Shown here: one piece after another, positions 25,754 to 31,336 of the stretch
How the letters are laid out: every line of letters begins with the position of its first letter
How positions within the stretch are numbered: position 1 is the stretch's first letter
DNA from: Acidiluteibacter ferrifornacis
Lineage (GTDB): Bacteria; Bacteroidota; Bacteroidia; Flavobacteriales_E; Vicingaceae
DNA: 64,000 nucleotides
Assembly (NCBI RefSeq): GCF_009909615.1
Contig: NZ_WWNE01000006.1
Coordinates: forward strand, 186,001 to 250,000
Direction of reading: 5' to 3'
Made by a program: the position numbers and the translations under genes
The notes under the pieces: generated by a model
Told to the model about the DNA's origin: nothing
Database searches by the model: none
What the model saw: only the letters and a program-made list of their open reading frames with translations

Positions 25754-25767
25754 GACAATCAATCCAT

Positions 25768-25804
25768 AAAAAAACCTGCATTGAAATTCAATGCAGGTTT
25801 TTTT
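25768..25804 (+). terminator. Terminator after typA
   Basis: Long stem: seven A plus CCTGCATTG against CAATGCAGG plus seven T, with a five-base loop. It also lies near the 3' end of the convergent minus-strand gene and may work in both directions. Confidence 0.9.
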
Positions 25805-25838
25805 ATGACTAGGTGTTACAAGAGTTAAATGAGCGCAA

Positions 25839-27362
25839 TTACCAGTTGGGTTGATACAATAACCACAGACCTAGGTTCTGATTTCTCCATCTAGAATCGT
25901 ATTGCTTAGTGAAAGATGTAAGATCCTCTTCATATCCACATCTCACTCCTACACCTACAATCTCATTAACTTGATATCCTAAACTTAAGTTAAATTGATA
26001 CCCGTATACCAAGTCTCTGATCGAGTTGGATTGACCAAAATCTTCGGTAATAGCTAAATCTTTTGAAATATATGCTCCTTGATGATCAAACAAGTAGTTA
26101 GCTACCAAGCCGGCACGCAATTCTGCCATTATTCGTCCATAATTTTTCTGAACTCCTATGAATACAGGAATAGATAAACGTTTAAAGGTGTTGGTTCGAT
26201 ATAAATAATCTTCAACCAAGGTGAAAGAAGGAGTTTCAATTTCATTGATTTGTTTTTCTATCAATAATACAGGTTTTCCATTACTTACAAAATTTGAATT
26301 AACCACTCGATAAGTTGTATCATAAGAGATGTCAACCCCTAATTCTTCTCTATTCACCTTATATCCCACTTGTTCGGTCTGAACTATGTAATGTGCACCA
26401 ACCCCAAATGTCAAAAACTTGTATGGTCGGATTAAATTTATTCCCATCCTCGAATTAGACTTTGCCACTTCACTATTCTCTTTATATTCTTTCAATGATT
26501 CATTACTCATTGCTAGAATTTTATCTGATTTGTAAGACCGCATTGCAACTATTTCTAACGCTAGCTTCTGTCGCTGGATTGGAGGTTGAATAATGGAGCT
26601 GACCACTTTCCTCTTAGGATTTAATTGCAAACTATAATTAGAAAAAACTGCATTCCATTTCATCAATTTAGGAACCATTAATTCGATTTCATTCTGCTGA
26701 GTTGATAAATTAGAGAACTGATTTTTTGAGGCAAAAGATATTGAAGTATTATTTTCCTTTACTGAACTTTCTCTTGTGGAAGGATTAGCTAAATCATCCT
26801 CCATTTTAATATCATTAACGCTCGCTTCGAACTTTTGGGTAACGGTATTTCCACTAATAGCCGAAACCTTAAAATCGGGAACTACTGGTTCTGGTGAAGC
26901 ATTGGCAGCATTAGTCCTCGCTATACCTTTCGTGGAGACGTCAGGCACCTCTAATGTTTCTACAATATCATTTTTAGTATCAATGATTGAAGGCTGTTTT
27001 GTATTTGAATTTGAGGTTGTGTTAGTTTTTATTTGAGGTTGTTCTACTTGAGTCTTCTTTTGAGAAAAAGAATAATCTTCGTCTAATTCAGTTTGATTCT
27101 GTTTCGTGGTATGATCTTTTGCAAAAACACCTTCCGATTTCCCAACGGTATTTATTCGTACTGTATCAGTTGAAATCATTGCACTCATCAATAACACGAA
27201 TGCTAAGGCAATTCCATTTAAACTAAAGTACCAAGGCACCATCCTTTTTGGGGAACTCGGTAACTGAGTCTCTACAGCGGCCCAAAGATTACTATCTACA
27301 GGATAGTTCTTTTTTAAACCTTCTCTAAAGAGCTGGTCAATTTTACTATTATCTTCTTTCAT
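25839..27362 (-). CDS. Trans-envelope anti-sigma-like protein with C-terminal beta-barrel
   Basis: 507 residues from the ATG at 27362, which overlaps the TGA of the sigma gene by one base; a GTG one codon upstream is less likely. Order: a cytoplasmic N-terminus (residues 1-43) with IDQLFREGLKKNYPVDSNLW, similar to anti-sigma-like heads in Bacteroidota; one membrane helix (about 44-64); a long low-complexity Ser/Thr/Asn/Lys-rich periplasmic region (about 70-260); and a C-terminal part of alternating amphipathic strands (about 265-507) ending in aromatic LLYQPNW, consistent with an outer-membrane barrel. This layout matches the recently described dual membrane-spanning anti-sigma factors (Dma) of Bacteroides. 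Anti-sigma function is inferred. Confidence 0.7.
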   Translation of the reverse strand: MKEDNSKIDQLFREGLKKNYPVDSNLWAAVETQLPSSPKRMVPWYFSLNGIALAFVLLMSAMISTDTVRINTVGKSEGVFAKDHTTKQNQTELDEDYSFSQKKTQVEQPQIKTNTTSNSNTKQPSIIDTKNDIVETLEVPDVSTKGIARTNAANASPEPVVPDFKVSAISGNTVTQKFEASVNDIKMEDDLANPSTRESSVKENNTSISFASKNQFSNLSTQQNEIELMVPKLMKWNAVFSNYSLQLNPKRKVVSSIIQPPIQRQKLALEIVAMRSYKSDKILAMSNESLKEYKENSEVAKSNSRMGINLIRPYKFLTFGVGAHYIVQTEQVGYKVNREELGVDISYDTTYRVVNSNFVSNGKPVLLIEKQINEIETPSFTLVEDYLYRTNTFKRLSIPVFIGVQKNYGRIMAELRAGLVANYLFDHQGAYISKDLAITEDFGQSNSIRDLVYGYQFNLSLGYQVNEIVGVGVRCGYEEDLTSFTKQYDSRWRNQNLGLWLLYQPNW

Positions 27363-27913
27363 CACGATACTTTTTCGTTATACACTTCAAGCATGGCTAC
27401 TAATTTTTTACGCGCTTCTCCCAAATGCCATTTGGATGTACTCTCGCTCATCTCTAACAATTCAGCAATTTCTCTGTGTTTAAATCCATCTATTGCATAC
27501 AAGTTAAACACCTTAGCTGTCATTGTTGGCAATTGACGAATCATTTCTAATAAGTATTCTGAATCTAATTCTGCTTCCTTTTCATGGATAGAAGTTGGAT
27601 GACTTGACAACCCGACTTCTTCAAGAAAGCCTAGCTTATCCCGTTCTCGTTTTTCCTTGCGATACTCATCTATTAGATGGTTCACAGCAATACGTTTCAT
27701 CCAAGGAACAAAAGCTTCATCACTTCTAAAATCATTTAAATGGTCTAGAACTTTCAAGAAAATTGCATTTAGACTAGCTCCTGCAGAATCATAATCATTT
27801 TTATACCGAACACAGATATTCATGAGGTATGAAAACACCTCATTATAAAGCTGATTTTGAGCCAACCTCTTCTGCTTTTTGCAGTCATCAAGAAGCGCCT
27901 TATCTATTTTCAT
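27362..27913 (-). CDS. ECF-type RNA polymerase sigma factor
   Basis: 183 residues with sigma-70 regions 2 and 4 and no region 3. Region 2 shows FLKVLDHLNDFRSDEAF and PWMKRIAVNHLIDEYRKEK; region 4 shows LPTMTAKVFNLYAIDGFKHR, then EIAELLEMSESTSKWHLGEARKKL as helix-turn-helix, with SKWHLxxARxxL typical of Bacteroidota ECF factors. It is followed with a one-base overlap by the putative trans-envelope anti-sigma protein, the usual layout for such pairs. The upstream PKD-repeat gene ends 23 nt before this start, so all three may be cotranscribed. Its regulon is unknown. Confidence 0.9.
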   Translation of the reverse strand: MKIDKALLDDCKKQKRLAQNQLYNEVFSYLMNICVRYKNDYDSAGASLNAIFLKVLDHLNDFRSDEAFVPWMKRIAVNHLIDEYRKEKRERDKLGFLEEVGLSSHPTSIHEKEAELDSEYLLEMIRQLPTMTAKVFNLYAIDGFKHREIAELLEMSESTSKWHLGEARKKLVAMLEVYNEKVS

Positions 27914-27936: not shown

Positions 27937-29751
27937 CTATTGTTTGATTACTTTTCTCGTTACTATTTCATTTCCATAATTAATCATCAAGAAGTATAAA
28001 CCTTCTGAAAGGTGTTGTAAGTCAATCCTATTCTTTATCAAACTTAAATTTCCCTCAACTTTTAGAGAGCCATCAATTCCTATTATAGAATAAGTAGTAT
28101 TTGTTAGAATTGAATTAAATTCAATCTCAATAAAATCAGCGGTAGGATTCGGGTATACTTTAAGTCCACTCATTGTAGTATTTTCTTCAACTCCAATAAA
28201 TCCACCATTCAAAACTTTAAGCTTAAAACCTCCTGATTTTAAAATATTTCCCGTACTATCAAGCCCAACAGAGTCGCAATATGTAGAGGTGCAATTCATA
28301 GAAACATCACTCACTGTCAAACAAATTTTGTATGCTTTATTCTCCGAATATTGATGAGTTGGCGTACGGTTTGTTGAAGTAGTTCCATCACCAAAGTCCC
28401 ATAAATACTGATGTGAAGGAACATTAGAAGATTCATTGACTAGGTACAATGTTCCTATTTCCGTGGTATCAATTGCAACTATATACTTTGCAACGCATGA
28501 AGTTGAAATAGTAACTGATATAGTTTTACTAGTTGTATCACTACATGCTATTGAATCATTATATACAATTTGTTGAATAGTATAGGTTCCACTATTTTGA
28601 TACAAATGGATAGGGTTCTCCATAGTTGAAGAATCTCCGTCACCAAAATAATATACTAATCGATTGTAATTAGTTGCTGTATTCTGTATCTGAACTGTAT
28701 CCCCTAAAATTGAAAAATTAAAACCTGATTTACAATCTCCAACGATTGAAATTGTATCACAATATACATCGGAACAGTGCCCTTGATAGGTAACTGTTTG
28801 GCAAACTATATAAGTACCAGGCTGCCCATAAACATGTAATGGATTTTCTGTAGTTGATGAGTTTCCATCACCAAAATCATAGAAAATAGAAGTAAAAGGA
28901 GTGCTTGTGTTCTGAAAAGAAATTGTGTCTTTATTGGCTGAGTATAAAAAACCCGCTTCACACTTCGGCGAAATATTTATAACTAGAGAGTCATAATGTG
29001 TTGCTAAACAATTTGAAATAGTATCTGCCATATATAATTTTACATTATAGACTCCACTTGCAGAATAATTATGACTAGGGCTTACTGTGTAACTCGAATC
29101 TCCATCTCCAAATTTCCAAAGAAAGATAGTAGAGAATTGGTTAGGCAGTGAAGTATTAATAAACTGAGCGACTCCATTAGTGTCTGATTGGCTAACAAAA
29201 GACGCCTTACAATAATTGACATAAACCGTATCCAAATGAGTACAAGTTAATCCATTTCCAATCGCAATTAATTGAACTAGATATACTCCAGGGCCTGGAA
29301 AGTAATGTATCGGACTTTTCGCAGTATCTATCGGGCTCCCATCACCAAAATCCCACTGATAGGTCAAACCATTTGAAGGCGTTGTTAAGTTGGTAAACCC
29401 CACCTCTCCAGTAGTATCAAAAACCTGATAAGAATAATCAGCAATACAAGGGCTAGATACTGTTACTTGTTTCCAAATGGTATCTGTACAGTTAGAATCT
29501 GCTATCAACAAGCTTACGAAATAAGTTCCAGACTGGCTGTAAGTATGTGAAGGATTTGCAATTGTATCAGAAGACCCGTCATCAAAATCCCAATAAAAAG
29601 AGTGATTCCCTAAAGAACTAAAAGAAGAATCAATAAATTGAACAGTTAAATTCTGACTCCAAAAATAAAAATCGGCTTGACAGTTTTGCGCACTCATATG
29701 AGACGCCCCCAAGCCCAAATATATTATAAGAAAAACAAAAAATCTCTTCAT
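27937..29751 (-). CDS. Secreted six-PKD-domain protein with T9SS type A signal
   Basis: 604 residues: a signal peptide (cleavage after HMSAQ), then six PKD-like repeats marked by WDFDDG, WDFGDG, WKFGDG, YDFGDG, YYFGDG and WDFGDG, many with paired cysteines, and a C-terminal T9SS type A sorting domain beginning at GLKVYPNPTADFIEIEF and ending in TRKVIKQ. It is predicted to be secreted through the T9SS and anchored at the surface, perhaps as an adhesin. The N-terminal 60 residues are close to those of the gene at 29846-31219, so the two are tandem paralogues. It lies 23 nt upstream of the ECF sigma gene on the same strand. Confidence 0.88.
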   Translation of the reverse strand: MKRFFVFLIIYLGLGASHMSAQNCQADFYFWSQNLTVQFIDSSFSSLGNHSFYWDFDDGSSDTIANPSHTYSQSGTYFVSLLIADSNCTDTIWKQVTVSSPCIADYSYQVFDTTGEVGFTNLTTPSNGLTYQWDFGDGSPIDTAKSPIHYFPGPGVYLVQLIAIGNGLTCTHLDTVYVNYCKASFVSQSDTNGVAQFINTSLPNQFSTIFLWKFGDGDSSYTVSPSHNYSASGVYNVKLYMADTISNCLATHYDSLVINISPKCEAGFLYSANKDTISFQNTSTPFTSIFYDFGDGNSSTTENPLHVYGQPGTYIVCQTVTYQGHCSDVYCDTISIVGDCKSGFNFSILGDTVQIQNTATNYNRLVYYFGDGDSSTMENPIHLYQNSGTYTIQQIVYNDSIACSDTTSKTISVTISTSCVAKYIVAIDTTEIGTLYLVNESSNVPSHQYLWDFGDGTTSTNRTPTHQYSENKAYKICLTVSDVSMNCTSTYCDSVGLDSTGNILKSGGFKLKVLNGGFIGVEENTTMSGLKVYPNPTADFIEIEFNSILTNTTYSIIGIDGSLKVEGNLSLIKNRIDLQHLSEGLYFLMINYGNEIVTRKVIKQ

Positions 29752-29787: not shown

Positions 29788-29822
29788 AAAAAAAAGGGCA
29801 AAAGAATAAAATTCTTTTGCCC
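29788..29822 (-). terminator. Terminator after the four-PKD gene
   Basis: A 12-bp stem GGGCAAAAGAAT/ATTCTTTTGCCC with AAA loop, followed on the minus strand by eight T. It separates the two PKD genes transcriptionally. Confidence 0.85.
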
Positions 29823-29845
29823 CTCAAAGCTATTCAGTAGCACTC

Positions 29846-31219
29846 TTATTTAGTCTTTATAAACTTCTGAGTTTTTTGAGACTTTCCATCATTTAAGGAT
29901 ATGATATATAATCCATTTTCAAGGTTTGAGATATCAAATTGCTCAATATTTCCTGATGCATTATTGTTTCTTTCCATGATCACTCTACCAGAGATATCCA
30001 TTATTCTAATTTCAACTTTAGAAGAAATTGCTCTTAAGTCAACAGAAAGGTTACTCACTGCTGGGTTTGGATAAACTGTTACTTCTTCTAGAGATGTATT
30101 CTTCTCAATGCCTACAAGAGTTGGATCAATTACAGTGATTGAAAATCCTGCTGCAGATTTTAAGTTTCCTAAGGAATCCATACCTACTGTATCACAGAAG
30201 TACGAAATACAATTCATTAATGTATCTGTAATTTGCAAACAAACCACATAGTCTCCAAAACTTGCATACTGATGTGAAGGAGTTCTTCCTGATCCGAAGT
30301 TACCGTCGCCAAAATCCCAAGTATAAATGTGAGAACTTAAGTTAGATGAAGTGTTAATTAAATAAACGCTATACTGAGCAGTAGTATCTTTCATAATCGT
30401 ATAACTAGCGTTACAGCTCGCTGGAGGTGGTGTAGTTCCAATTACAACACTATCACTGTAAGTTGATAAACAATTGATTAATGAATCATCAGTAGTCAAT
30501 GTAATTGTATAAACACCTGAAGAGGCATAAGTATGTGTTGGATTCACTGCTGTACTTGAATTTCCATCACCGAAATCCCAGTAGTATGCCGAACTCCATA
30601 CCGAAGCATAAGAAGTATTTGTTAAGGTTACTGTATTACCTAAAACTTGAGAAGTAAAAGAAGAATTACAATAATGAACATTAATAGTATCAGTATACTG
30701 ACAAGCAACTCCGGCTCCAGCAGCGTATAGTGTAACCACATATACTCCTGTTGTAGCATAAGTGTGTGTTGGACTTGTTACAGTTGAATATGGCGAGCCA
30801 TCACCAAAGTCCCATGCATAAGTTAAAGGAGATGTTGGAGGAGTTGTATTCGTGAAAGTAACGGCATTTGTAGCCCAATCTACTGAACTATTAAAACTAG
30901 CTGTACATGGAGGATTTGGGTTTGAAACTGTTACTGGTTTACAAATTGTATCACCACATAAAGTGTCTGCAATCATTAAGCAAACCGTATAAGTACCAGC
31001 CTGACTATAAGTATGTGCAGGACTTTGAGTAAATGCACTCTGACCATCTCCAAAATCCCAACTATGAGAATGGTTTCCTGATGTACTGAACGATGAGTCC
31101 ATAAATTGAGCAGTCAAGCCATTCGACCAATACTGGAAGTCAGCATGACAGTTTTGCGCCTGTAAGCTACTGAAAGCAACTGTAAAGAAGAAGGCCATTA
31201 AGTAAGTAATCTTTTTCAT
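29846..31219 (-). CDS. Secreted four-PKD-domain protein with T9SS type A signal
   Basis: 457 residues from the ATG at 31219 (MKKITYLMAFFF); the frame is open up to 31315 but those codons would precede the signal peptide. A signal peptide ends at SLQAQ, then four PKD repeats each with WDFGDG, and a type A sorting domain from EEVTVYPNPAVSNLSVDL to KTQKFIKTK. The mature N-terminus NCHADFQYWSNGLTAQFMD closely resembles the gene downstream, indicating tandem duplication with change in repeat number. It should be exported by the T9SS and held at the surface. Own terminator at 29788-29822. Confidence 0.88.
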   Translation of the reverse strand: MKKITYLMAFFFTVAFSSLQAQNCHADFQYWSNGLTAQFMDSSFSTSGNHSHSWDFGDGQSAFTQSPAHTYSQAGTYTVCLMIADTLCGDTICKPVTVSNPNPPCTASFNSSVDWATNAVTFTNTTPPTSPLTYAWDFGDGSPYSTVTSPTHTYATTGVYVVTLYAAGAGVACQYTDTINVHYCNSSFTSQVLGNTVTLTNTSYASVWSSAYYWDFGDGNSSTAVNPTHTYASSGVYTITLTTDDSLINCLSTYSDSVVIGTTPPPASCNASYTIMKDTTAQYSVYLINTSSNLSSHIYTWDFGDGNFGSGRTPSHQYASFGDYVVCLQITDTLMNCISYFCDTVGMDSLGNLKSAAGFSITVIDPTLVGIEKNTSLEEVTVYPNPAVSNLSVDLRAISSKVEIRIMDISGRVIMERNNNASGNIEQFDISNLENGLYIISLNDGKSQKTQKFIKTK

Positions 31220-31336
31220 AATATAAATTTTTAGATTGTTTACATGAAATACGCCTAAGCCTAAAAGATAGTTGGGTATCTTCAATAGAAAAAAACACAA
31301 AAGTCTAAAAAACAAAAGATTAATTAAGAAAAAAAA

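Follow-up and report, generated by a model that had tools for sequence, protein, structure and literature searches.

A sigma and dual-membrane anti-sigma pair of Acidiluteibacter ferrifornacis, a probable Dma-type surface-to-gene switch for T9SS surface proteins

Regulators of the Dma family, which has been described as Bacteroidota-wide, combine an N-terminal anti-sigma domain, a membrane helix, a disordered tether and a C-terminal barrel, and have an ECF21 sigma factor adjacent to them (PMC13088901). In Bacteroides, Dma2 has DUF-containing genes as neighbors and governs vesicles and PULs (PMC13088901). The pair M0N98_03760/03761 of Phocaeicola vulgatus reacts to a toxin, and probably also to stress on the envelope; it lengthens the O-antigen (PMC9308784). 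PorA, a surface protein of Porphyromonas gingivalis with a T9SS tail, feeds into PorXY-SigP (PMC7712824). SM6 ECF promoters of Flavobacterium psychrophilum carry a CGT -10 box and precede T9SS genes and an ECF/anti-sigma operon (PMC9723704). For dual-membrane pairs, we found no T9SS linkage and no promoter described in the open-access literature, though an earlier report may exist; that literature likewise yielded no description of surface-driven regulation of individual T9SS cargo proteins.

Here we analyze a locus of Acidiluteibacter ferrifornacis contained in a window of 64,000 nucleotides (the whole stretch of DNA studied, contig NZ_WWNE01000006.1, positions 186,001 to 250,000). We estimate a probability of roughly two in three that it encodes a self-contained, Dma-type surface-to-gene switch dedicated to T9SS surface proteins. 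Its center is formed by two overlapping genes (coordinates are window positions throughout):

27362-27913, minus strand: ECF sigma factor, 183 aa (domain matches and gene coordinates)
25839-27362, minus strand: putative Dma-like anti-sigma factor, 507 aa (AlphaFold2 and fold search); its start codon shares one base with the sigma stop

The 183-aa protein matches TIGR02937 with 68.9 bits (cut-off 42.9) and the Pfam families Sigma70_r4_2 and r2, which bears out the ECF assignment made in the initial annotation of this DNA. The gene coordinates given there are also correct, as is the one-base overlap, with a stop/start junction reading TGATG. Region 2.2, in the N-terminal part of the sigma factor (window 27768-27913), reads DSAGASLNAIFLKVL, where other ECF sigma factors of the genome are EAQDIMQDGFIKVF-like, and this change is kept across the subfamily of related loci defined below. 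The sigma gene of one relative (G013, L097:8001-8549) has an in-frame TAG at ~8182, which reflects either a pseudogene or an assembly error; the anti-sigma and cargo genes of that locus are intact.

An AlphaFold2 model, calculated with an input alignment of 12 relatives, divides the 507-aa protein into four parts:

27243..27362, minus strand: cytoplasmic head, residues 1-40, with helices 5-19 and 24-32 (AlphaFold2 and alignment)
27177..27233, minus strand: inner-membrane helix, residues 44-62 (AlphaFold2 and hydropathy)
26577..27176, minus strand: disordered periplasmic tether, residues 63-262 (AlphaFold2, pLDDT ~25-39)
25854..26561, minus strand: 8-stranded outer-membrane barrel, residues 268-503 (AlphaFold2 and VIA-align)

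The head contains the motif IDxLFRxGxxxxYPxDxxLWxxVExxLP, and its two helices are modeled with a pLDDT of only ~62-66. A single hydrophobic helix (about residues 44-65, hydropathy 1.9) is followed by ~200 disordered residues. The barrel is of the OmpA type (block-mean pLDDT ~74-97; VIA-align Z is 18.1 to OprF, 4rlc, and 16.0 to OmpA, 1qjp), and is weak by sequence alone (PF13505, E=0.0011, under the family cut-off). The initial annotation had proposed a head, one membrane helix, a long periplasmic region and a C-terminal barrel with a terminal aromatic residue, and expected a structure prediction to return the membrane helix and eight barrel strands; the model contains all of these parts, and the last residue is Trp507. 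Since the four-part layout is kept in homologues from other genera at 21-34% identity, it is not a product of chance. Searching for relatives with the anti-sigma protein alone returned none, and matching the anti-sigma profile against PDB sequences produced a single chance hit and nothing else. In another genome (G036), a 70-aa ORF located 3' of the anti-sigma gene (L002:3223-3435) repeats its barrel end, a partial duplication.

Gene order and layout point to anti-sigma activity of the 507-aa protein. A FecR-type anti-sigma factor was considered and rejected, as the protein has no FecR match and no TonB-dependent receptor is found among the immediate neighbors. The 507-aa protein might instead be an outer-membrane protein that is merely co-transcribed with the sigma gene and has no anti-sigma role, which we judge very unlikely. 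In favor of this explanation, a joint sigma-head prediction for the relative L093 (PAVT01000013.1), whose sigma and anti-sigma genes share a reading frame and could be translated across the intervening stop, yielded a well folded sigma factor and a head with pLDDT < 50. However, small outer-membrane barrels have cleavable signal peptides, whereas ~40 conserved residues precede the helix here and a tether follows it; the overlap with the sigma gene is retained across genera; and proteins of the same layout are anti-sigma factors in Bacteroides (PMC13088901, PMC9308784).

Set against the published description of Dma, we class the pair as working like a Dma system, and by architecture it is probably a family member. 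Dma1/Das1 and Dma2/Das2 of Bacteroides thetaiotaomicron resemble it in the combination of an N-terminal head (sigma-binding in Dma), one helix, a tether and a barrel, in the adjacent ECF sigma factor (ECF21 in Dma) and in forming an operon with an extra gene. The Dma layout suggested in the initial annotation holds at the level of the predicted head, helix, tether and barrel; at the sequence level, hhalign detected no similarity to L107, a stand-in pair from Bacteroidales with a matching layout, whereas similarity was detected for pairs from Saprospiraceae and from the same genome. The P. vulgatus pair M0N98_03760/03761 also has a sigma gene followed by that of a large anti-sigma factor, for which a periplasm-spanning form and a C-terminal outer-membrane barrel are predicted, and that report cites the EcfO pair of B. 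fragilis as another such case (PMC9308784). Both pairs differ from ours in responding to toxin or oxidative stress, and T9SS genes are not reported in their operons (PMC9308784). The cassette in the window, in contrast to the DUF-containing genes around Dma2, is built around T9SS surface proteins:

29846..31219, minus strand: cargo gene 1, secreted protein of 457 aa with four PKD repeats and a C-terminal T9SS sorting domain (Pfam)
29793..29825, minus strand: intrinsic terminator 3' of cargo gene 1, 15 pairs, T tail (hairpin)
27937..29751, minus strand: cargo gene 2, secreted protein of 604 aa with six PKD repeats and a C-terminal T9SS sorting domain (Pfam)
25764..25808, minus strand: terminator 3' of the anti-sigma gene, 20-pair hairpin, U tail (hairpin)

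Both upstream genes carry PKD repeats and PF18962, confirming the T9SS cargo genes that had been noticed beside the pair (cargo gene 1: PKD_4 4.9e-51, PF18962 E=3.1e-16; cargo gene 2: PKD_4 1.7e-62, PF18962 E=3.4e-11; both PF18962 matches over cut-off). Cargo gene 2 is separated from the sigma gene by 23 nt on the same strand, and its 457-aa paralogue, cargo gene 1, lies further upstream. The anti-sigma alignment was too divergent for searching, and we used a whole-genome search and a scan of named genomes with the sigma alignment to define a subfamily of 12 loci (sigma identity 41-69%). All 12/12 loci share one gene order (one or two T9SS PKD genes, sigma, dual-membrane anti-sigma), and a PKD/T9SS-signal gene is found immediately 5' of the sigma gene on the same strand in every one of them. 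Genes beyond the cassette vary, with typA in the window and rnr, suf genes, an epimerase or an aldehyde dehydrogenase elsewhere. A hairpin resembling a terminator separates cargo from sigma at three distant loci, L101-L103.

We noticed a repeated element, ACCCAAC...CGT, 5' of the subfamily cargo genes. It defines two predicted sigma-specific promoters in the window:

31251..31275, minus strand: predicted promoter P1, CCAACTATCTTTTAGGCTTAGGCGT (CCAAC-N17-CGT), 31 nt 5' of the cargo gene 1 start codon
29761..29785, minus strand: predicted promoter P2, CCAACCTTTTCTCTATATATTTCGT, 9 nt 5' of cargo gene 2

P2 would transcribe cargo gene 2 together with the sigma and anti-sigma genes. CCAAC-N17-CGT is present in 17/18 cargo upstream regions of the 12 subfamily loci, with a spacer of exactly 17 every time, compared with 0.04 on average and at most 1 in shuffled regions for which spacers of 15-17 were allowed. 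In other families, AAC-N16-18-CGT is located 5' of the cargo gene in 13/24 cases where cargo comes first (2.8 in shuffles), and CAAC-N16-18-CGT is located 5' of sigma in 14/47 cases where it does not (1.2 in shuffles). The 1.27 Mb of survey loci contain 33 strict sites, 16 of them immediately 5' of T9SS genes and 7 before sigma. This placement matches the expectation for an autoregulated sigma operon whose output is the cargo. A scan for the conjectured promoter pattern TGTAAC-CGT yielded nothing.

Outside this locus, the exact motif is about as frequent in the A. ferrifornacis genome as a reversed control, so support in that genome is limited to the two local promoters; in eight other genomes scanned, the strict motif is no commoner than the reversed control. 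The regulon thus appears small and mostly local, and we claim no wide one. A few unlinked intergenic sites 5' of T9SS genes in other genomes (L257, L269) are leads only. The SM6 promoters likewise place a CGT -10 box of an ECF-type promoter 5' of T9SS genes, but their targets include machinery, gldN and porU, and we saw neither a -35 element nor an anti-sigma layout described for them (PMC9723704). PorA-PorXY-SigP also connects a T9SS-tailed surface protein to ECF sigma signaling; it differs in using a two-component route, for which a dual-membrane anti-sigma factor is unreported, and in controlling the T9SS machinery rather than cargo (PMC7712824).

The anti-sigma profile matches 96/247 sampled genomes from 65/142 genera of the class, and judging by these matches sigma/dual-membrane anti-sigma pairs are widespread in it. 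The initial proposal that the locus extends the Dma system is only mildly new in view of these relatives and of a family already considered Bacteroidota-wide (PMC13088901). From 80 neighborhoods we retained the 71 sigma pairs whose partner has 330 aa or more. Immediately 5' of sigma, at position -1, a co-oriented T9SS gene is present in 24/69 pairs from 13/29 GTDB families, a rate that may be biased upward because the loci were gathered by a profile from the cargo-linked subfamily. At a distance of 4-5 genes, T9SS genes account for 10/224 (Fisher p=5e-10 for -1 versus distant positions, which is no true probability as the sequences are related), and at position +1 for 16/71. The association is patchy, T9SS cargo being absent from -1 in 16/29 families, and on a sigma tree the cargo-adjacency state changes at least 10 times, which argues against a single frozen ancestral arrangement. 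Pfam confirms PF18962 in 23/24 genes at -1; PKD repeats are found in 13 of the 24, the others having carboxypeptidase-regulatory-like, SdrD_B or SpaA folds. Anti-sigma partners that adjoin cargo have Pfam matches to barrel families only, whereas partners lacking adjacent cargo are mixed and include 7 CHU_C and 8 PKD proteins, these domains taking the place of the barrel in other families. In several families, a secreted or lipoprotein-like protein of ~370-400 aa recurs 3' of the anti-sigma gene (L186, L191, L194, L201, L170, L203 and others), with C-termini such as AVAYP/AVAHP and often a motif-bearing T9SS gene further on.

With ~122 T9SS sorting-tail genes in the A. ferrifornacis genome, T9SS adjacency could in principle be a by-product of abundant cargo genes. 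We consider this extremely unlikely: the enrichment falls to background 4-5 genes away, none of nine unrelated ECF loci of the same genome, taken as a negative control, has an adjacent T9SS gene, and a dedicated predicted promoter precedes the cargo genes.

The genome contains a second dual-membrane pair, with a PF13568 barrel (C16:518338, L025:8321-12070, plus strand; G001, L023). Its T9SS gene is located immediately downstream, not upstream. CCAAC-N17-CGT precedes neither its sigma nor its cargo gene, so the promoter of this pair would be different or degenerate. At two further loci, C16:238592 (L066:9101-10252, plus strand) and C21:46783 (L067:7529-8764, minus strand), the sigma gene is followed by a putative anti-sigma gene encoding a head and a membrane helix. 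These proteins end in a T9SS-type CHU_C domain (PF13585, E=2.1e-17 and 5e-14, over cut-off), and a membrane-anchored anti-sigma factor bearing such a T9SS signal could monitor the secretion machinery directly.

Outer-membrane loops are usually the most variable parts of such proteins. In the 507-aa protein, strands beta3 (residues 317-358) and beta4 (364-408) are modeled as much longer than one membrane crossing and form a long hairpin:

26259..26321, minus strand: tip of the beta3-beta4 hairpin, residues 348-368 (alignment and AlphaFold2)

The hairpin is predicted to lie outside the cell, because the number of strands is even, both termini are periplasmic and the two strands are overlong. Its tip is the best-conserved stretch of the anti-sigma factor, with a mean majority-residue frequency of 0.76 compared with 0.59 in the head and 0.45-0.58 in the barrel strands, and it holds three (Tyr-351, Leu-367, Ile-368) of the seven positions invariant across 12 anti-sigma sequences. 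Conservation at a place where loops usually vary most speaks for a specific surface partner. The idea of a surface cue, raised in the initial annotation, is strengthened by this tip of the predicted hairpin and by the conserved cargo-sigma-anti-sigma operon with its promoter.

What the barrel reports bears on the choice between two explanations. It may be a sensor of outer-membrane stress only, monitoring barrel assembly or lipid asymmetry, a role suggested for the pair of P. vulgatus, with failed insertion leading to tether cleavage and sigma release; the T9SS surface proteins would then be a protective output and not a signal. This is a serious contender, if somewhat short of an even chance: the P. 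vulgatus pair shares the layout, answers to toxin and probably envelope stress, and lengthens the O-antigen (PMC9308784), and this explanation agrees no less well with the promoter and operon data. Conservation, however, is highest at the hairpin tip, above that of the strands, the C-terminal one included, which suggests a specific surface partner. Alternatively, the barrel or its hairpin may contact the exported PKD protein or an outer-membrane part of the T9SS, so that sigma activity would reflect the amount of cargo delivered to the surface. The linkage with T9SS genes across the class, the conserved tip, the CHU_C domains borne by the two other sigma partners of the genome and the PorA to PorXY-SigP precedent in P. 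gingivalis (PMC7712824) are consistent with such monitoring of T9SS output. We nevertheless regard it as rather doubtful, as cargo types differ by family (PKD, carboxypeptidase-regulatory-like, SdrD_B, propeller) and a single shared ligand is unlikely.

Alongside the computed architecture, the operon and its conservation, the class-wide linkage and the promoter motif and where it lies, we infer head-sigma binding, a release mechanism, a cue and cargo feedback, and propose that the Dma-type switch could operate as follows. The cytoplasmic head of the 507-aa protein would hold the sigma factor, while the inner-membrane helix anchors the protein, the disordered tether crosses the periplasm and the barrel sits in the outer membrane with its long hairpin reaching out of the cell. 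The sigma factor would be freed when the barrel undergoes a change, be it binding at the hairpin tip, failed assembly or pulling on the tether. Freed sigma would read CCAAC-N17-CGT and transcribe the genes for the two PKD-repeat surface proteins along with its own operon. The surface proteins would be exported via the T9SS as the output of the switch, and perhaps also act as its signal, which would close a feedback loop.

The pair alone is one more Dma-like case; the cargo operon, the promoter and the conserved hairpin are what is new. A wider and more speculative version, which we think rather unlikely, is a phylum-wide, T9SS-coupled feedback in which the hairpin reads the presence or delivery of the operon's own T9SS protein and sets its transcription with no separate receptor. 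If true, this would be secretion-coupled gene control reaching from the cell exterior straight to a promoter. A defined output, a predicted promoter of fixed spacing and a candidate sensing tip (residues 348-368) make the sensing question testable in cultivable Bacteroidota. For bacteria with at least 100 T9SS cargo proteins, the switch offers a possible way to control individual ones from the surface. Taken together, our analysis suggests that these bacteria adjust their surface coat by sensing the coat directly.
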